A stretch of DNA of 35,422 nt from Mycobacterium sp. UM_CSW (lineage in GTDB: Bacteria > Actinomycetota > Actinomycetes > Mycobacteriales > Mycobacteriaceae). Every line of letters starts with the position of its first letter. Positions within the stretch are counted from its first letter, which is position 1. Positions 21,884 to 28,514 of the stretch are shown here, piece by piece. Under the pieces are notes generated by a model. It made no database searches. It was not told the origin of the DNA and worked only from the letters and a program-made list of their open reading frames with translations. A program made the translations under genes and the position numbers. The stretch spans positions 1 through 35,422 of the forward strand of contig NZ_AUWQ01000107.1 in the NCBI RefSeq assembly GCF_000455205.1, written 5' to 3'.

Positions 21884-23773
21884 TCAGCCGGCGCCCGCGC
21901 CGCCCTCGGCAATCCGGCGCACCGCGCTGAGGAAGACGTCGATTTCCTCGAAGGTGTTGTAGAACGCGAACGACGGGCGGACGGTGGCCTCCAAGCCGAG
22001 ACGGCGCAGGATCGGCTGCGCGCAGTGATGGCCGGCGCGCACCGCGATGCCTTCGGCGTTGAGCGCCTTGCCCACCTCGAGCGGATCGTGTCCAGCCAGC
22101 ACGAACGACAGCACGCTGGCCTTTTCGGTCGCGGTGCCGACCAGGCGGACGCCTGGGATGTCGGCCAGCCGCGGGGTCGCGTAGTCCAGCAGGGCCCGCT
22201 CGTGGGCGGCGATGCGCTCCACGCCCAACCGCTGCACGTAGCGCAGCGCCTCGCCGAGGCCGACGGCGTCCGCGATGTTGCCCGTGCCGGCCTCGAACTT
22301 GCTGGGCGGTCCCTGATACAGCGAGCGTTCCAGCGTCACGTCGGCGATCATGTTGCCGCCGCCCTGCCACGGCGGTGTTTCGGCCAAGGCCTCCTCGGTC
22401 CCGTAGAGCACGCCGATTCCGGTGGGGCCGTAGATCTTGTGGCCGGAGAAGACGAAGAAATCGACGCCCAGCTCGGCGACGTTGACCGGCAGGTGCTGGA
22501 TGGACTGGGCCCCGTCGATCAGCACCCGCGCGCCGTAGCGGTGGCCCAGCTCGACGATCTGCTCGACCGGTGTCACCGTGCCCAGCGCGTTGGACACCTG
22601 GGTCGCGGCCACCAGTTTGGTCTTTGGCCCAAGCAAATCCTCGAATTCCGACATCAGCAAATTGCCGGCGTCATCGACCGGCGCCACTTTCAGAATCGCG
22701 CCTGTCTGTTGCGAAAGCAGTTGCCACGGGACGATATTGGCGTGATGCTCTAAATGAGTAATGACAATCTCGTCGCCGGGCAGCAAATGCTTGCCGCCCC
22801 AGGCGTAGGCCACCAGATTGATGGCTTCGGTGGTGCCTCGCACGAAGATGATCTCTTCGTCGTTCGCGGCGCCGATGAATCGCCGGACGGTGTTGCGCGC
22901 TTCCTCGTAGGCGTCGGTCGCGCGGGCCGCCAACTCGTGCGCCGCGCGATGAATGTTGGAGTTCTCGTGGGCGTAGAAGTGCGACAGGCGATCGATCACC
23001 GCCTGCGGTTTCTGGGTGGTTGCCGCGTTGTCGAACCAGATCAGCGGCTTGCCGTTGACGGTCTCGGTCAGGATGGGAAAGTCCGCGCGCACCGCGTTGA
23101 CGTCGAACACCTCGTGCTCGTCGGGCAAGCGGGGCACGGGATCCGTCTTGGTCAGGAAGTGATAGAGGTGCTCGTCGCCGACGGGCGCAACTGGTGGCGC
23201 GTCGGACCAGCCGAGATCGAGCACCGGCGGCGCGTCGGGCAGCCACGAGGGCGTCGCGGGCGCTGAACTGCGGGGGGCCACCGGAGCGGACGGCACCGTC
23301 CCGGCGAGCACCCCGGGCACCGTGGGCACGATGCCCTCGCTGGGCACCGCGAAGGCGGCGAGGTCGGCGACGCCGGGTGGAAGGTAGGGATCGGCGACGC
23401 TCGCGGCCGTCTCCCCGGCCGACGGCGCGGCCGTCGCATCGGGCACGTTGCCGCGCGGGGCGACGGGCACCGTCTGTGGCGGGCTTTCGGGCCCGGGCGA
23501 TGTCGGCGCCGGGACGTATATGTCGGCGAAGCCGACGACGGGGACCGGCGGCAGGTAGGGGTCCGACGTGCCGGCGGCGGCGTGTCCGGCCGAGGTGGCG
23601 GCGGTGGCGTCCGGCACCGTGCCGCGCGGGGCCACGGGTGCCGTCTGCGGCGGGCTGTCCGGCCCGGGCCGGATGCTGGCCGCGTACAGCTGGGTGGCCA
23701 GCGCCGCGAGTTCGGCGGCTCCGATCGGCAACTCGCTTTCGGCGTCTACCGCTCGGTACTCACTTGTACTCAT
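21884..23773 (-). CDS. Cysteine desulfurase, family 2A encapsulin cargo
   Basis: The 629-aa protein is a SufS-type (class II) cysteine desulfurase from about residue 225, with an N-terminal extension of about 220 residues. PLP Lys446 lies in SGHKIYGPTG. The catalytic Cys584 lies in RAGHHCAQP, and ITHLEHHAN and FEAGTGNIADAVG are typical of the family. It releases sulfur from cysteine as persulfide. The extension is Pro/Ala-rich and low in complexity. It contains two 41-residue repeats (36-76 and 93-133, both PGPxSPPQTxPVAPRG to DPYLPP) and a third partial PVAPR. In known family 2A systems such an extension loads the enzyme into the encapsulin. It overlaps the shell gene by 14 nt, so the two are co-expressed. 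Confidence 0.95.
   Translation of the reverse strand: MSTSEYRAVDAESELPIGAAELAALATQLYAASIRPGPDSPPQTAPVAPRGTVPDATAATSAGHAAAGTSDPYLPPVPVVGFADIYVPAPTSPGPESPPQTVPVAPRGNVPDATAAPSAGETAASVADPYLPPGVADLAAFAVPSEGIVPTVPGVLAGTVPSAPVAPRSSAPATPSWLPDAPPVLDLGWSDAPPVAPVGDEHLYHFLTKTDPVPRLPDEHEVFDVNAVRADFPILTETVNGKPLIWFDNAATTQKPQAVIDRLSHFYAHENSNIHRAAHELAARATDAYEEARNTVRRFIGAANDEEIIFVRGTTEAINLVAYAWGGKHLLPGDEIVITHLEHHANIVPWQLLSQQTGAILKVAPVDDAGNLLMSEFEDLLGPKTKLVAATQVSNALGTVTPVEQIVELGHRYGARVLIDGAQSIQHLPVNVAELGVDFFVFSGHKIYGPTGIGVLYGTEEALAETPPWQGGGNMIADVTLERSLYQGPPSKFEAGTGNIADAVGLGEALRYVQRLGVERIAAHERALLDYATPRLADIPGVRLVGTATEKASVLSFVLAGHDPLEVGKALNAEGIAVRAGHHCAQPILRRLGLEATVRPSFAFYNTFEEIDVFLSAVRRIAEGGAGAG
23375..23668 (-). 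repeat. Two 123-nt coding repeats in the cargo-loading extension
   Basis: The two segments (23546-23668 and 23375-23497) encode 41-residue copies that differ at a handful of positions and recur with a 57-residue period. Each begins PGPxSPPQT and ends DPYLPP. The nucleotide sequences are also alike, as in the stretch encoding PVAPRG. A weaker third unit (PSAPVAPRSSAPATP) follows near residue 161. They probably act as repeated shell-binding motifs; this is inference from family 2A encapsulins. Confidence 0.8.
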
Positions 23774-24692
23774 GGAACTGGTCCACGGCCACGTCGTCGA
23801 GGACGGCGAGCGCGTCGTCGGTGAGGACGGCCAGCGAGTTGTACAGCGTGACCAGGTATGTCGCGATCGCTGACTGGTTGATCCCGGTGAACCGCACCGA
23901 CAGGCCCGGCGCCTGCTCGCCGACCAGGCCGGGCTGGAACAGGCCGACCACGCCCTGGCGCTCCTCGCCGGTGCGCACCAGGATGAACTTGGTCTTGCCG
24001 TCTTCCACCGGCACCTTGTCCGACGGGATCAGCGGAATGCCGCGCCAGGTGATGAACTGCGCCCCGAACAGGCTCACCACGGGCGGCGGCACGCCGCGGT
24101 AGGTGGCCTCGCGGCCGAACGCCGCGACACCGAGCGGGTGGGTGAGGAAGAAGCTGGGCGTCTTCCACACCTTCGTGATGAGCGCGTCGAGGTCGTCGGG
24201 CGTCGGCGCCCCGCCGAGCGTCTGGATCGTCTGCTCCGGCGTCGCCTGGGCCAGCAGCCCGTACTCGGGGCTGTTGACCAGCTCGAACTCCTGGCGCTCC
24301 TTGATCGTTTCGATGGTCAGCCGCAGCTGCTGGGCGATCTGGTCGTGCGGGCTGGAGTACAGGTCGGAGACCCGGGTGTGGATGTCGACCAGGGTCGAGA
24401 TCGAGCGCAGCGTGTATTCGCGCGGGCTGGTCTCGTAGTCGACGTAGGTCTCGGGCAGCGGTTCCTCGGTGCCGGCGCCCTCTTCGGCCTTGATCGCCAC
24501 ACTCTCGGGGTTGACGACCCGGTTCACCCGGTAGAGGCCGGCTTCCACGGGAACCCAGCTGAGCAGATGCAACAACCAACGCGGCGTGATGGTCGAGAGC
24601 TGCGGGACGGTCTTCGTCGCGTTGGCAAGCTGCCGGGCGGCGAGATCGCCTAGTGCCTGGGATTCGTTTTGAGCCCCCTGAGCCGTCGTCAT
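23760..24692 (-). CDS. Family 2A encapsulin shell protein (major membrane protein I type)
   Basis: The 310-aa protein has an HK97-type capsid fold by family relation. It contains the characteristic extended N-arm (NATKTVPQLSTITPRWLL), then LPETYVDYETSPREYTLRSI and ITWRGIPLIPSDKVPVEDGK, and ends FTGINQSAIATYLVTLYNSL. This matches the SrpI / M. leprae MMP-I group now known as family 2A encapsulins. The protein should self-assemble into a cytoplasmic protein shell that packages the downstream cysteine desulfurase. A strong SD (GGAAGGAGCG) precedes the ATG. It is divergent from the cysteine leader and cysK1 genes, which puts sulfur mobilisation next to cysteine synthesis. From memory it is absent at this place in M. 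tuberculosis. Confidence 0.95.
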   Translation of the reverse strand: MTTAQGAQNESQALGDLAARQLANATKTVPQLSTITPRWLLHLLSWVPVEAGLYRVNRVVNPESVAIKAEEGAGTEEPLPETYVDYETSPREYTLRSISTLVDIHTRVSDLYSSPHDQIAQQLRLTIETIKERQEFELVNSPEYGLLAQATPEQTIQTLGGAPTPDDLDALITKVWKTPSFFLTHPLGVAAFGREATYRGVPPPVVSLFGAQFITWRGIPLIPSDKVPVEDGKTKFILVRTGEERQGVVGLFQPGLVGEQAPGLSVRFTGINQSAIATYLVTLYNSLAVLTDDALAVLDDVAVDQFHEYK

Positions 24693-24870
24693 CGCGCTCC
24701 TTCCGCTCGGTCGAACGCTGCTGCGAGTGCGGCAGCTTCATGATCGCCCACCGTCAGCGGTGGCGCGCGCCGAGCGTAGGCGGGCACGGAGGTGATACAG
24801 AAGGTTTACACCGGGGGTGAGTGAAAACAAGGAAGCGAGCCCGAAATCTGACAGCGGTGTTTGCGGGCCC

Positions 24871-24876
24871 TATAGT
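24871..24876 (+). promoter_or_regulatory. -10 box of the leaderless cysteine-leader transcript
   Basis: TATAGT lies exactly 7 nt before the ATG at 24884, so transcription should begin at or next to the A of that ATG. The same element with the same 7-nt spacing precedes the second leader (28075-28080). No clear -35 is seen, which is common in mycobacteria. Confidence 0.75.
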
Positions 24877-24883
24877 GGGGGCC

Positions 24884-24958
24884 ATGCAACAGGCCGTTCA
24901 GCTGCGCTTCGTTCCTTCGCGCTGCCTCGCCATGGACTGTTGTTGTCGCTGTTGTTGA
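24884..24958 (+). CDS. Polycysteine leader peptide (cysteine attenuator)
   Basis: This 24-codon ORF ends M-D-C-C-C-R-C-C-stop, with six Cys residues in total and five of the last six codons TGT. It is in frame from the leaderless ATG at 24884; the internal ATG at 24932 is an alternative start giving only the eight-residue end. Leaderless short ORFs with Cys runs that control cysteine genes are known in M. smegmatis. Ribosomes stalling at the Cys codons when cysteine is scarce would change folding of the downstream RNA and expose the next gene. The genes downstream (TQXA-like, cysK1, cysE) fit this logic. Confidence 0.85.
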   Translation: MQQAVQLRFVPSRCLAMDCCCRCC

Positions 24959-25069
24959 TTTCCTGACGCCCTAACGACGCCTTAGAAATCCTCGCGCTTT
25001 CCCCGCAACGGGCAGGACCCGCGGTCCGCCCCGCGGCATCGATGCGCGCCAGTCGAACCCTTTCAGGAA
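24959..25069 (+). promoter_or_regulatory. Attenuator region: possible SD-sequestering helix
   Basis: TTCCTGA at 24960-24966, directly after the leader stop codon, is exactly complementary to TCAGGAA at 25063-25069, which contains the SD of the TQXA-like gene. A ribosome held on the Cys codons (24938-24955) would cover the upstream arm and free the SD. A small hairpin GGACC-CGC-GGTCC (25015-25027) lies between the arms. The pairing is visible in the sequence; its function is inference. Confidence 0.55.
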
Positions 25070-25081
25070 GATCAACCACCC

Positions 25082-26359
25082 ATGACCGTCTTATCCATGC
25101 CCAACCGCGCCCTGACGCGGGTCGCGACCCGCCGGCGCGTGCACATCCGGCCGGCGGCCGACGTCGCCCGCATGACGCGCTACCGCGGCGGCACCTACTC
25201 CCACACCGTGGACCGGATCGTGTTCGCCGACGGCAGCTGGGCGCGCACCGACCTGATCCGGCTGCATCCCAACCTGCTGGCCTACTCGCTCGACTTCACC
25301 GGCATCGCACCGCACCTGCCCTCGAGCTACCGCCTGGGCACCTGGTCCGCCCTGCCCCACCTGCGGGCCCGCGGGTGCGAGGCCGCGGTCGAATGGATCC
25401 TGCGGCACTCCTTTCCGACGAGCCACATCGCCGAGCTGAGCCAACGGTTGCGGGCCGCCGGTTACCCGCTGGGGCGGGCCAACCTCAGCGAACACGAGGC
25501 CATCGCGGCCACTCAGGCCGCGATATGGCACTTCACCAACGGCCTGGCCTTGGACACCCGGCCGCTCAACGAGCCCGTCTTTGTGGACCGCGCTCCCGGG
25601 CCGGTGATCACCTTCGAATTCGACGGCGAACCACAGCTGGGCGGGTACTCGGTATGGACGGCGTCCGACACCACCATCGGTGTGAAACTGCAAAAGTCCT
25701 CCAATGGCGTTGACTGGCAGGATGTTTCGGGTTCACAGCTGACCGCCCATGCCGGCGAGGGGCGACACCGGCGCAGCCTCGGCGTCGGCAGCACGCTGTC
25801 TACCAGCAGCCACGGCGGCGGTGGGCGCGGTTACCGCCACTACCGGCTCGTCGCAACGACGGACACCGCCGGCGCGACGATCGGCGATGTCCGGTTCTGG
25901 CTGACCGGCGCCCGCCACTACCGCAATGCCGATCGGGTCGTGCACCTCTACAATTACCTACTCACGGGGGCGAGCGCCGCCTTGCGCAACTCCGAAGAGC
26001 CGCGACTGGTCGATACCCATGCAACCGCCGAATCCGAACTCATAGGACCCTTCCAGGTGCGAATCCCTTTGAGCCTCAGCGCGGCCGGCGGACACGCGCT
26101 GGTCGACGCCGACGGTTTGGGCATCGACGAGATCGTCCAGCCGGGAACGGACTTCTATGTGCGTCCCGCGCCGGGCACATCGGCGATGACAATGACGGCA
26201 ACGACACCGCACGACCTCACCGGACGGGTACTCACCGGCGAGGCATTCGCGGGGGCGTCGCAGCGGTTCACCCCGGTTGCGCTTATCGTGCCAATAGACG
26301 TTGCAATCGAATTCGACATCACCTGGCAAGCCGACGAGCCCTGTACCGACATCGCGTAA
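25082..26359 (+). CDS. TQXA/thioester-domain-like protein without signal peptide
   Basis: This 425-aa protein has three parts. A TQXA-like domain (about 30-165) has YRGGTYSHT and the hallmark TQAAIWHFTNG (Gln145). A discoidin-like beta-sandwich follows (about 172-285, VKLQKSSNGVDWQDVSG to RHYRLVATTD). A C-terminal domain (about 310-420, GPFQVRIPLSL to DGLGIDEIVQPGTDFYV) resembles those of actinobacterial thioester surface proteins. In such proteins a Cys-Gln thioester forms covalent adhesion bonds. Here the expected Cys site reads AYSLDF (Ser69), and I see no signal peptide, LPxTG or membrane anchor, so it may be cytoplasmic and unable to form the bond. It is first in the cysK1-cysE operon behind the polycysteine leader. 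Function unknown. Confidence 0.8.
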   Translation: MTVLSMPNRALTRVATRRRVHIRPAADVARMTRYRGGTYSHTVDRIVFADGSWARTDLIRLHPNLLAYSLDFTGIAPHLPSSYRLGTWSALPHLRARGCEAAVEWILRHSFPTSHIAELSQRLRAAGYPLGRANLSEHEAIAATQAAIWHFTNGLALDTRPLNEPVFVDRAPGPVITFEFDGEPQLGGYSVWTASDTTIGVKLQKSSNGVDWQDVSGSQLTAHAGEGRHRRSLGVGSTLSTSSHGGGGRGYRHYRLVATTDTAGATIGDVRFWLTGARHYRNADRVVHLYNYLLTGASAALRNSEEPRLVDTHATAESELIGPFQVRIPLSLSAAGGHALVDADGLGIDEIVQPGTDFYVRPAPGTSAMTMTATTPHDLTGRVLTGEAFAGASQRFTPVALIVPIDVAIEFDITWQADEPCTDIA

Positions 26360-27301
<942 letters not shown>

Positions 27302-27303
27302 CC

Positions 27304-27987
27304 ATGCTCGCAGCCATGCGGCGGGACATCCGGGCGGCCAGGGAGCGCGACCCCGCCAAGCCCACCACGCTGCAGGTCGTCTTCGCCTACCCGGGCGTGC
27401 ACGCGATCTGGGCCCACCGGGTCAGCCACTGGCTGTGGAACCGCGGCGCCAGGCTGGCCGCCCGGACGTTCGGGGAGGTCACCCGCATCTTCACCGGGGT
27501 CGACGTCCACCCCGGTGCCGTCCTGGGCCCCGGCCTGTTCATCGACCACGCGACCGGCGTGGTGATCGGCGAGACGGCCGAGGTGGGCGAGGACGTGACG
27601 CTGTACCACGGCGTGACCCTCGGTGGCAGCGGCGCGGAGACCGGAAAACGCCACCCGACCGTCGGCGACCGCGTGATCATCGGCGCCGGGGCCAAGGTGC
27701 TGGGCGCGATCAAAGTCGGCGACGACAGCCGGATCGGCGCCAACGCGGTGGTGGTCAAGCCGGTGCCGTCGGGGTCCGTGGTCGTCGGGGTTCCCGGGCA
27801 GGTCATCAGCCGCGCCGGCCGGGGCACCCCCGACGACTCGATGATGCCCGACCTGGTGGGCGTCAGCCTGCAGTCCCTGCTCACCCGAGTGGCCAAGCTG
27901 GAGGCGTTGAACGACGGCCCGCAGAATGGCCGGGTAATCCGCCCGCCCGAGGCCGGCGTGTGGCACGGCGAGGACTTCCAGATCTGA
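27304..27987 (+). CDS. cysE: Serine O-acetyltransferase
   Basis: The 227-aa enzyme makes O-acetylserine, the substrate of CysK1, from serine and acetyl-CoA. It has a short helical N-terminus (the EpsC/short-type SAT lacks the long N-terminal domain), then left-handed beta-helix hexapeptide repeats. The catalytic pair Asp81-His82 is in FIDHATGVVIGETA, followed by LYHGVTLGGSG. CysE and CysK usually form the cysteine synthase complex through the SAT C-terminus, which here ends in Ile (GEDFQI), the residue typically needed. The start is ATG 27304, 2 nt after the cysK1 stop; a longer in-frame reading from 26614 lies inside cysK1. Confidence 0.97.
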   Translation: MLAAMRRDIRAARERDPAKPTTLQVVFAYPGVHAIWAHRVSHWLWNRGARLAARTFGEVTRIFTGVDVHPGAVLGPGLFIDHATGVVIGETAEVGEDVTLYHGVTLGGSGAETGKRHPTVGDRVIIGAGAKVLGAIKVGDDSRIGANAVVVKPVPSGSVVVGVPGQVISRAGRGTPDDSMMPDLVGVSLQSLLTRVAKLEALNDGPQNGRVIRPPEAGVWHGEDFQI

Positions 27988-28074
27988 GGGCGATCGCGCG
28001 TCCCTCGGTGCGCAAGGTTTAAATCCGTTGTGAGCCAATGACATATGTCGCAGCAGCGCCCGTCGACCATGCCC

Positions 28075-28080
28075 TATAGT
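28075..28080 (+). promoter_or_regulatory. -10 box of the second leaderless leader transcript
   Basis: TATAGT is followed by 7 nt and then ATG (28088), the same geometry as at 24871. The preceding CCC is also shared (CCCTATAGT in both places). This gives the ANTAR gene its own promoter separate from cysE, which ends 87 nt upstream. Confidence 0.72.
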
Positions 28081-28087
28081 GGTTCGT

Positions 28088-28120
28088 ATGTCACGGGCCT
28101 CGACGCGCTGTTGCCGTTGA
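28088..28120 (+). CDS. Short Cys-containing leader peptide (MSRASTRCCR)
   Basis: This ten-residue leaderless ORF ends T-R-C-C-R-stop. The Cys-Cys pair just before the stop, the leaderless start and the context after cysE suggest a second cysteine-responsive leader, acting on the ANTAR gene at 28233. The sequence after the stop (TTGATT-n2-CTGACG) matches that after the first leader, supporting common origin or mechanism. With only two Cys codons the response might be weaker than for the first leader. Confidence 0.72.
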   Translation: MSRASTRCCR

Positions 28121-28232
28121 TTCGCTGACGTTCGCGCCCCATCTTGCGCGAGACGTGGCTTTGCCCAATTCCTTTCAGGCAAATTGCTGCTATTTCGTTG
28201 CGCGGCAGAACTTTTCAGGAGGTGGTCGACAG
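28121..28232 (+). promoter_or_regulatory. 5' untranslated region of the ANTAR gene
   Basis: This stretch of 112 nt between leader 2 and the ANTAR start can form a hairpin TTTGCC-n13-GGCAAA (about 28161-28185). It ends in a strong SD (CAGGAGGTGG, 28217-28226). An in-frame GTG at 28155 would add 26 residues including Cys-Cys but has no SD. I could not find as good an anti-SD arm as in the first leader. Confidence 0.45.
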
Positions 28233-28514
28233 ATGACCGAAACCCTTGCGGGCCAACGGCATATCGATGAGGGCCGTCAGCAGGCCAGCCGGGCGCTCGA
28301 TACGGCGGTGGGGATACTCGTCGGGTGGCGTAGGTACAGCACCTATGTCGCGTTTCGGGAGTTGCTCAGCGCCAGCGAACGGTACGGGGTACCGCTGTTC
28401 AAGCTGGCTTCGGCGCTGGTGGACCTGGCCAGCGGAACCGCCGAAAGCGAGACCGGCGTCGACGCGGCCCGGTTGGCCGCGGAACGGGAATGGGGCCTGA
28501 ACTACTTGCTGTGA
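28233..28514 (+). CDS. Minimal ANTAR-domain protein
   Basis: The 93-aa protein consists of little more than an ANTAR domain (about residues 20-72). It has LDTAVGILVGWRRYSTYVAF, then RELLSASERYGVPLFKLASALVDLAS, the three-helix pattern of these RNA-binding antiterminators. No receiver, GAF or PAS sensor domain is present. ANTAR proteins usually bind dual hairpins in nascent RNA and prevent termination. With no sensor, its abundance may be the signal, set through the Cys-containing leader upstream. The ATG has a strong SD (AGGAGG). It overlaps the convergent isomerase-like gene by 13 nt at its 3' end. Targets are unknown. Confidence 0.82.
   Translation: MTETLAGQRHIDEGRQQASRALDTAVGILVGWRRYSTYVAFRELLSASERYGVPLFKLASALVDLASGTAESETGVDAARLAAEREWGLNYLL

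Follow-up and report, generated by a model that had tools for sequence, protein, structure and literature searches.

The short open reading frame that precedes the TQXA-cysK1-cysE genes of Mycobacterium sp. UM_CSW, referred to here as the first leader, is very probably a cysteine-responsive translational attenuator of these genes. It lies within the window, meaning the whole stretch of 35,422 nucleotides that was analysed. In the proposed mechanism, the transcript would begin at or next to the leader ATG, and the leader would be translated without a Shine-Dalgarno (SD) sequence. When Cys-tRNA is plentiful, the ribosome would complete the leader and depart, and the freed last codon, the stop codon and the bases that follow would pair back over the TQXA SD and shut it. 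When Cys-tRNA is short, the ribosome would wait on the last Cys codons and cover the first arm of this helix; with the helix blocked, the SD would open and TQXA would be translated. Expression of cysK1 and cysE would follow, through either translational coupling or freedom from polarity. We infer the start site, leader translation, stalling, the cysteine response, and the effect on cysK1 and cysE. The features concerned are as follows.

24848..24876, + strand: promoter of the first leader, with -35 CTGACA, a 17-nt spacer and -10 TATAGT (24871-24876).
24884..24958, + strand: leader short open reading frame, MQQAVQLRFVPSRCLAMDCCCRCC-stop, 24 codons, TGA at 24956-24958; leaderless, judging by spacing and sequence.
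24938..24955, + strand: Cys codon run TGT TGT TGT CGC TGT TGT, identified from the sequence; presumed cysteine sensor.
24954..24966, + strand: helix arm 1, GUUGAUUUCCUGA, comprising the end of the last Cys codons, the stop codon and TTTCCTGA; predicted from the fold, duplex and swap tests, and compensatory changes.
25063..25076, + strand: helix arm 2, UCAGGAAGAUCAAC, with one purine bulged; predicted on the same evidence as arm 1.
25065..25070, + strand: SD sequence AGGAAG of the TQXA gene, within arm 2, identified from the sequence.
25082..26359, + strand: TQXA/thioester-domain protein gene, the proposed first controlled gene (TIGR03934, 55.3 bits; PF08341, 39 bits).
26369..27301, + strand: cysK1, cysteine synthase A (TIGR01139, 473.5 bits).
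27304..27987, + strand: cysE, serine O-acetyltransferase (TIGR01172, 240.8 bits).

The CTGACA-17-TATAGT promoter matches the consensus at 10 out of 12 positions, against 0.0 for shuffled sequences in the promoter scan, and its spacing would have the RNA begin with, or close to, the first base of the leader ATG. This ATG, at 24884, stands 7 nt downstream of TATAGT, and the frame ends with the Cys codon run (CCCRCC), which bears out the original prediction of a 24-codon leader ending CCCRCC-stop. Elsewhere in the window, none of 648 other overlapping 420-nt segments contained a promoter-preceded short open reading frame with two Cys among its last eight codons. By gene order, the leader heads a cysteine/sulfur operon, with cysK1 and cysE after TQXA, and the gap between the leader and TQXA is 123 nt.

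The complementarity of TTCCTGA to TCAGGAA (25063-25069), at the SD of the next gene (ATG 25082), is likewise as predicted. TTCCTGA had been placed directly after the leader stop; it is present at 24960-24966, but one T (24959) intervenes. Similarly, the expected 7-bp helix exists, but is longer, with 13 bp and one bulged purine (24954-24966 with 25063-25076), and in the fold it extends over the final Cys codon and the leader stop. In the minimum-energy fold, A25068 is bulged, U24960 pairs with G25070, and two outer pairs are added; bulging G25070 instead of A25068 likewise gives 13 bp. AUCAAC, 3′ of the SD, takes part in the helix, though it is required by neither the SD nor the protein. The fold of the leader as a whole is unexceptional (z = -1.53; 13 out of 200 shuffles fold as well). 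The pairing of the leader end with the SD of the next gene is indicated by prediction and comparison. Between the arms, the block TAGAAATCCTCGCGC (24983-24997) is also seen at many loci most similar to the window; its GAAATC might offer GATTTC of arm 1 a different pairing.

Relatives of TQXA were identified in 75 of 198 genomes of the genus, of which 66 are near full length by our own table count; seven matches contain one stop codon. Among 201 genomes of the family, TQXA is present in six, five being of the genus and one, in two pieces, of another genus. The upstream DNA was read for 62 of the 66 near-full-length loci, leaving out four at 46-47 % identity, and a Cys-run leader behind a -10-like box, judged by eye for part of the loci, is present at all 62. 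This gives comparative support to the control of the operon by the leader, which the original prediction had marked as its inference. For further analysis, 86 non-identical loci were folded, including those with decayed TQXA. All 86 leaders have at least three Cys in the last eight codons, and the scan selected for nearly that.

Within these leaders, the ratio of TGT to TGC for Cys is 366:105, compared with 1:11 in seven coding sequences of the window. The last leader codon is TGT in 77, TGC in two, and not Cys in seven, and the base after the stop is T in 83 out of 86; this T and a final TGT are what the helix requires. The preference for TGT fits a demand on the bases themselves. It also bears on the suggestion that the leader is kept for its peptide, which would be a small metal-binding or redox protein rich in Cys. 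MQQAVQLRF.PSR-like N-terminal residues are indeed shared by many loci most similar to the window, but more distant leaders have little in common beyond the Cys run, and neither the use of TGT where the window genes use TGC nor the conserved base after the stop favours a peptide role, which is therefore considered highly improbable. It is just as improbable that the leader merely delivers terminating ribosomes to the next gene. Coupled short open reading frames are over-represented in mycobacteria, according to the available part of PMC4633059, but the next gene here has its own SD, and the distance from leader stop to downstream start, at 55-132 nt (median 107 nt, 86 loci), is far from an RTGA overlap.

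The number of expected arm-arm pairs has a median of 11.95 over the 86 loci, with nearly none in L018 (0.9), L024 (0.1), and L034 (0.4). Before the arm tests, six of the 86 (L048, L081, L086, L090, L154, and L157) were dropped, the arms or start being absent or unclear, which biases these tests in favour of the result; in L048 the leader ends CCCRCI and the arms pair little. In the remaining 80 loci, the mean duplex energy of the arms is -15.7 kcal/mol, compared with -8.9 kcal/mol after shuffling of arm 2; the median of the real arms is equalled by 1.3 % of the shuffled sets. Arms from the same locus also pair better than those of randomly paired loci (-13.6 versus -12.5), with none of 10000 permutations as low, relatedness being ignored. 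The gain comes from the UUCCUGA arms, which give -14.6 with their own partners and -9.6 with second arms from UUUCUGA loci; UUUCUGA arms pair about equally with either (-12.7 with their own, -13.0 otherwise), because of U-G wobbles. With real arms surpassing shuffled and swapped ones over 80 loci, the SD-sequestering helix, also put forward as an inference in the original prediction, gains support.

The central pair of the helix is readable in 48 of the 80 loci, as CG in 30, TA in 13, TG in three, and CA in two; a stricter first reading of the 80 gave 29, 10, 3, and 2, respectively. Parsimony on a tree from which the arms were excluded places two compensatory changes (CG-TA), two wobble-keeping changes, and two pair-breaking changes at this position, L010 and L034 being the loci that break it. 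Alignment across mycobacteria, proposed with the original prediction as a check for covariation, has yielded two compensatory changes alongside two breaks, and the covariation of the arms is real but modest support for the helix.

Ribosome placement was simulated for the 86 loci, twelve of the downstream starts being taken from a typed anchor. The predicted openness of the SD has a median of 0.17 when the RNA is free, rising to 0.42, 0.39, and 0.41 with the A-site at the second-last codon, last codon, and stop, respectively, and to 0.29 and 0.26 with the A-site one or two codons earlier than the second-last; openness values mean little for five loci whose SD string went unrecognised. For the window, openness goes from 0.13 to 0.32, a predicted gain below the median across loci. 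At the third Cys codon, the most upstream placement modelled, a ribosome leaves the SD of the window unopened (0.13), assuming a 15-nt reach. Placement on the stop codon is predicted to open the SD to much the same degree as placement on a Cys codon. The predicted rise for a ribosome at the last two codons, to a median of about 0.4, counts in favour of the proposed mechanism.

In trp-type transcription attenuators, the codons of the end product within a leader sense its supply. The first leader would share this codon sensing, but its pairing is with the SD, and the search for an intrinsic terminator came up empty, a result in favour of translational control. No terminator-like site was found at 24700-25120, where shuffles have a mean of 0.3; this is a weak test, terminators without a T-run being outside the scan. 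Rfam covariance models had no match at the leader at E values up to 5 in 24840-28300, the two chance-like matches both being outside it, and the sole match at gathering score in the window is a tRNA. It is unlikely, although less so than either alternative above, that the leader ribosome, through its state, governs whether transcription ends prematurely, by Rho or an unrecognised terminator, and not whether the SD is accessible. The median gap of 107 nt leaves room for Rho loading, and the available part of one paper proposes that the mycobacterial upstream open reading frame leader of ilvB1 acts by transcription attenuation (PMC13236596). Against this are the empty scan of 24700-25120, as far as terminators with T-runs are concerned, and the covarying arm, whose pairing partner is the SD. 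Translational attenuation remains the preferred explanation for the first leader.

Control of the TQXA start can pass to cysK1 given how tightly the two genes adjoin: of 30 loci, 28 have the TQXA stop between 10 nt upstream and 14 nt downstream of the initial cysK1 base, taking the cysK1 start as chosen by the script, which did not locate it in the other two. The closest named CysK1 among the 80 loci kept is that of M. interjectum, at 96 % identity, although records from the window's own genome may have been excluded. In some more distant genomes (G022 and G078), TQXA and a cysK relative (62 % identical) are approximately 3 kb apart and face away from one another. Thioester domains carry a Cys where the TQXA protein has Ser, in AYSLDF, in all 31 proteins read; TQAA is kept (TQAAIW), and no signal peptide was obvious by eye. 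From these features, the protein may be an intracellular relative that lacks the thioester. No solved structures were found for it at E values up to 0.1. Divergent from the leader are two further genes.

23760..24692, - strand: family 2A encapsulin shell gene (NF041162, 497.2 bits).
21884..23773, - strand: encapsulin cargo cysteine desulfurase gene (NF041166, 838.2 bits).

The presence of the encapsulin and its cargo cysteine desulfurase beside the cysteine genes makes this place a sulfur island.

The leader is often kept where TQXA is not. Among 64 genomes with cysK1 at least 82 % identical, upstream DNA was read at 28 loci where cysK1 has no intact TQXA next to it, and the leader is retained in 19 of these. 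In the other nine, four simply have none, two have TQXA fragments, one has a stretch of only 298 nt, and two (G156 and G184) have TQXA with a leader elsewhere in the genome. With six further distinct named loci (L153, L154, L157, L159, L165, and L167), there are 25 with a leader and without an intact TQXA, including M. interjectum (L151, with a leader as in L081), M. scrofulaceum DSM 43992 (L161, as in L089), and M. colombiense GF28 (L159). The loci of this type span L081, L083-L101, and L151-L167. Several loci share ancestry, and remnant length suggests seven to nine separate deletions of TQXA.

In 17 of the 25, the helix-controlled ATG still opens a remnant open reading frame; this overlaps or abuts the cysK1 start in 14, stops 9 nt short in L087, and stops 38-39 nt short in L095 and L165. 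There is no such frame in the other eight (L086, L090, L092, L093, L100, L153, L154, and L157). Given the frame, the chance of a remnant ending near cysK1 is 0.04-0.57 per locus in 14 loci, and the pattern is only suggestive of a relay to cysK1. TQXA itself may be partly such a relay.

A second leader, followed by a small gene, was identified downstream of cysE.

28075..28120, + strand: second TATAGT (28075-28080), then 7 nt, then a leaderless leader MSRASTRCCR-stop (28088-28120), identified from the sequence.
28233..28514, + strand: gene for an ANTAR-like small protein of 93 aa (PF03861, sub-threshold at 22.5 bits against a curated cut-off of 27.3; E value 9.5e-5).

The 93-aa protein has no NCBIfam match. 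By coordinates, its relatives adjoin cysK1-cysE in 14 genomes, and a promoter-preceded leader with at least two Cys in the last eight codons is present at 11 of these 14 linked loci (430 nt scanned), compared with none of 14 unlinked ANTAR paralogues (420 nt scanned). In control scans, such leaders were found in 0 out of 648 overlapping segments of the window and 5 out of 2458 segments of relatives, with obvious true leaders left out of the latter figure. In L277 and L279, the Cys pair is four residues before the leader end. Several of the second leaders read MQQ...CC, resembling the first leader, which suggests a common origin. That the second leader copies the first helix is not supported: in 11 loci, pairing of the leader end with the SD region of the ANTAR-like gene is not clearly better than in shuffles (p from 0.05 to 0.82), and different hairpins appear in the window fold (z -0.33), which was started 1 nt into the ATG.

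A broader arrangement can be proposed only tentatively, and is somewhat doubtful. Two leaders, similar to one another in several species and placed one at each end of TQXA-cysK1-cysE, would both read cysteine supply. Through the second, cysteine would also control an ANTAR-like regulator that possibly binds RNA, and stalled ribosomes would thereby set off a further layer of regulation acting in trans. TQXA would be part relay, species without its body often having kept the leader-controlled start and a frame open to cysK1. Among the results as a whole, it is the second leader that deserves attention.

Elsewhere in the same genome, two leader patterns gave 67 and 71 matches, compared with 50 and 57 for the reversed control. 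The 67th match to the first pattern is the second leader, and the matches to the second pattern include the first leader. Of the other 66 matches to the first pattern, which were read, a box and start are present at three, L122, L238, and L254. L254 is probably chance. The matches read do not amount to a census of such leaders. L122 and L238, on other contigs, have look-alike leaders ending FVHCCR-stop behind a TA...T box and are possibly further cysteine leaders, going by this resemblance.

For M. smegmatis polycysteine leaders, Canestrari et al. (2020) reportedly propose that stalled ribosomes block a structure that hides the SD of the next gene, and reportedly treat six loci. That Cys-run leaders are known in M. 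smegmatis, as had been stated for this DNA, agrees with the available parts of three papers, which credit cysteine-codon attenuation there to Canestrari et al. (2020; doi 10.1111/mmi.14498) (PMC9031893; PMC9094748; PMC13236596). In two of these, as far as the available text goes, the speed of elongation, dependent on cysteine, controls the genes downstream of M. smegmatis polycysteine leaders (PMC9031893; PMC13236596), and six M. tuberculosis open reading frames are predicted to work by cysteine attenuation in the available part of the third (PMC9094748). On the portions of these sources available, the mechanism proposed for the first leader is already published for the M. smegmatis polycysteine leaders, which are likewise leaderless short open reading frames with contiguous Cys codons. 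The present locus differs in having the TQXA gene first and a helix that includes part of the Cys codon run, and in that its arms were analysed for covariation.

Cys-rich leaderless leaders are also described before cysA2/Msmeg_5788, Rv0485/Msmeg_0932, and nirA/Msmeg_4527 in the available part of Shell et al. (2015; PMC4633059). Like the first leader, these are conserved, leaderless, enriched in Cys, and before cysteine-metabolic or hypothetical genes; unlike it, they belong to other operons, and the part available describes no SD helix. In M. abscessus, a ribosome-protected upstream open reading frame precedes the TQXA gene MAB_0219 and is said to resemble those predicted in M. smegmatis and M. 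tuberculosis (PMC4974804, in part). This is probably the same leader as the first leader, although the portion of that paper available mentions neither cysteine sensing nor a helix. The TQXA-cysK1 locus may therefore already be among the published leaders. In the open-licence literature searched, no mention was found of the ANTAR-like member or of TQXA losses with the leader kept; as far as checked, the loss of TQXA with retention of the leader and the second leader before a cysE-linked ANTAR-like gene are new.

The conservation of the first leader, with some compensating changes, adds comparative support to a mechanism credited to work in M. smegmatis and pinpoints the bases expected to be important. 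Leader-based cysteine control would now include TQXA, whose role is obscure, and also an ANTAR-like regulator, provided that the second leader is functional. Loci that have repeatedly lost TQXA but kept the leader are a natural experiment on the purpose of the attenuator.
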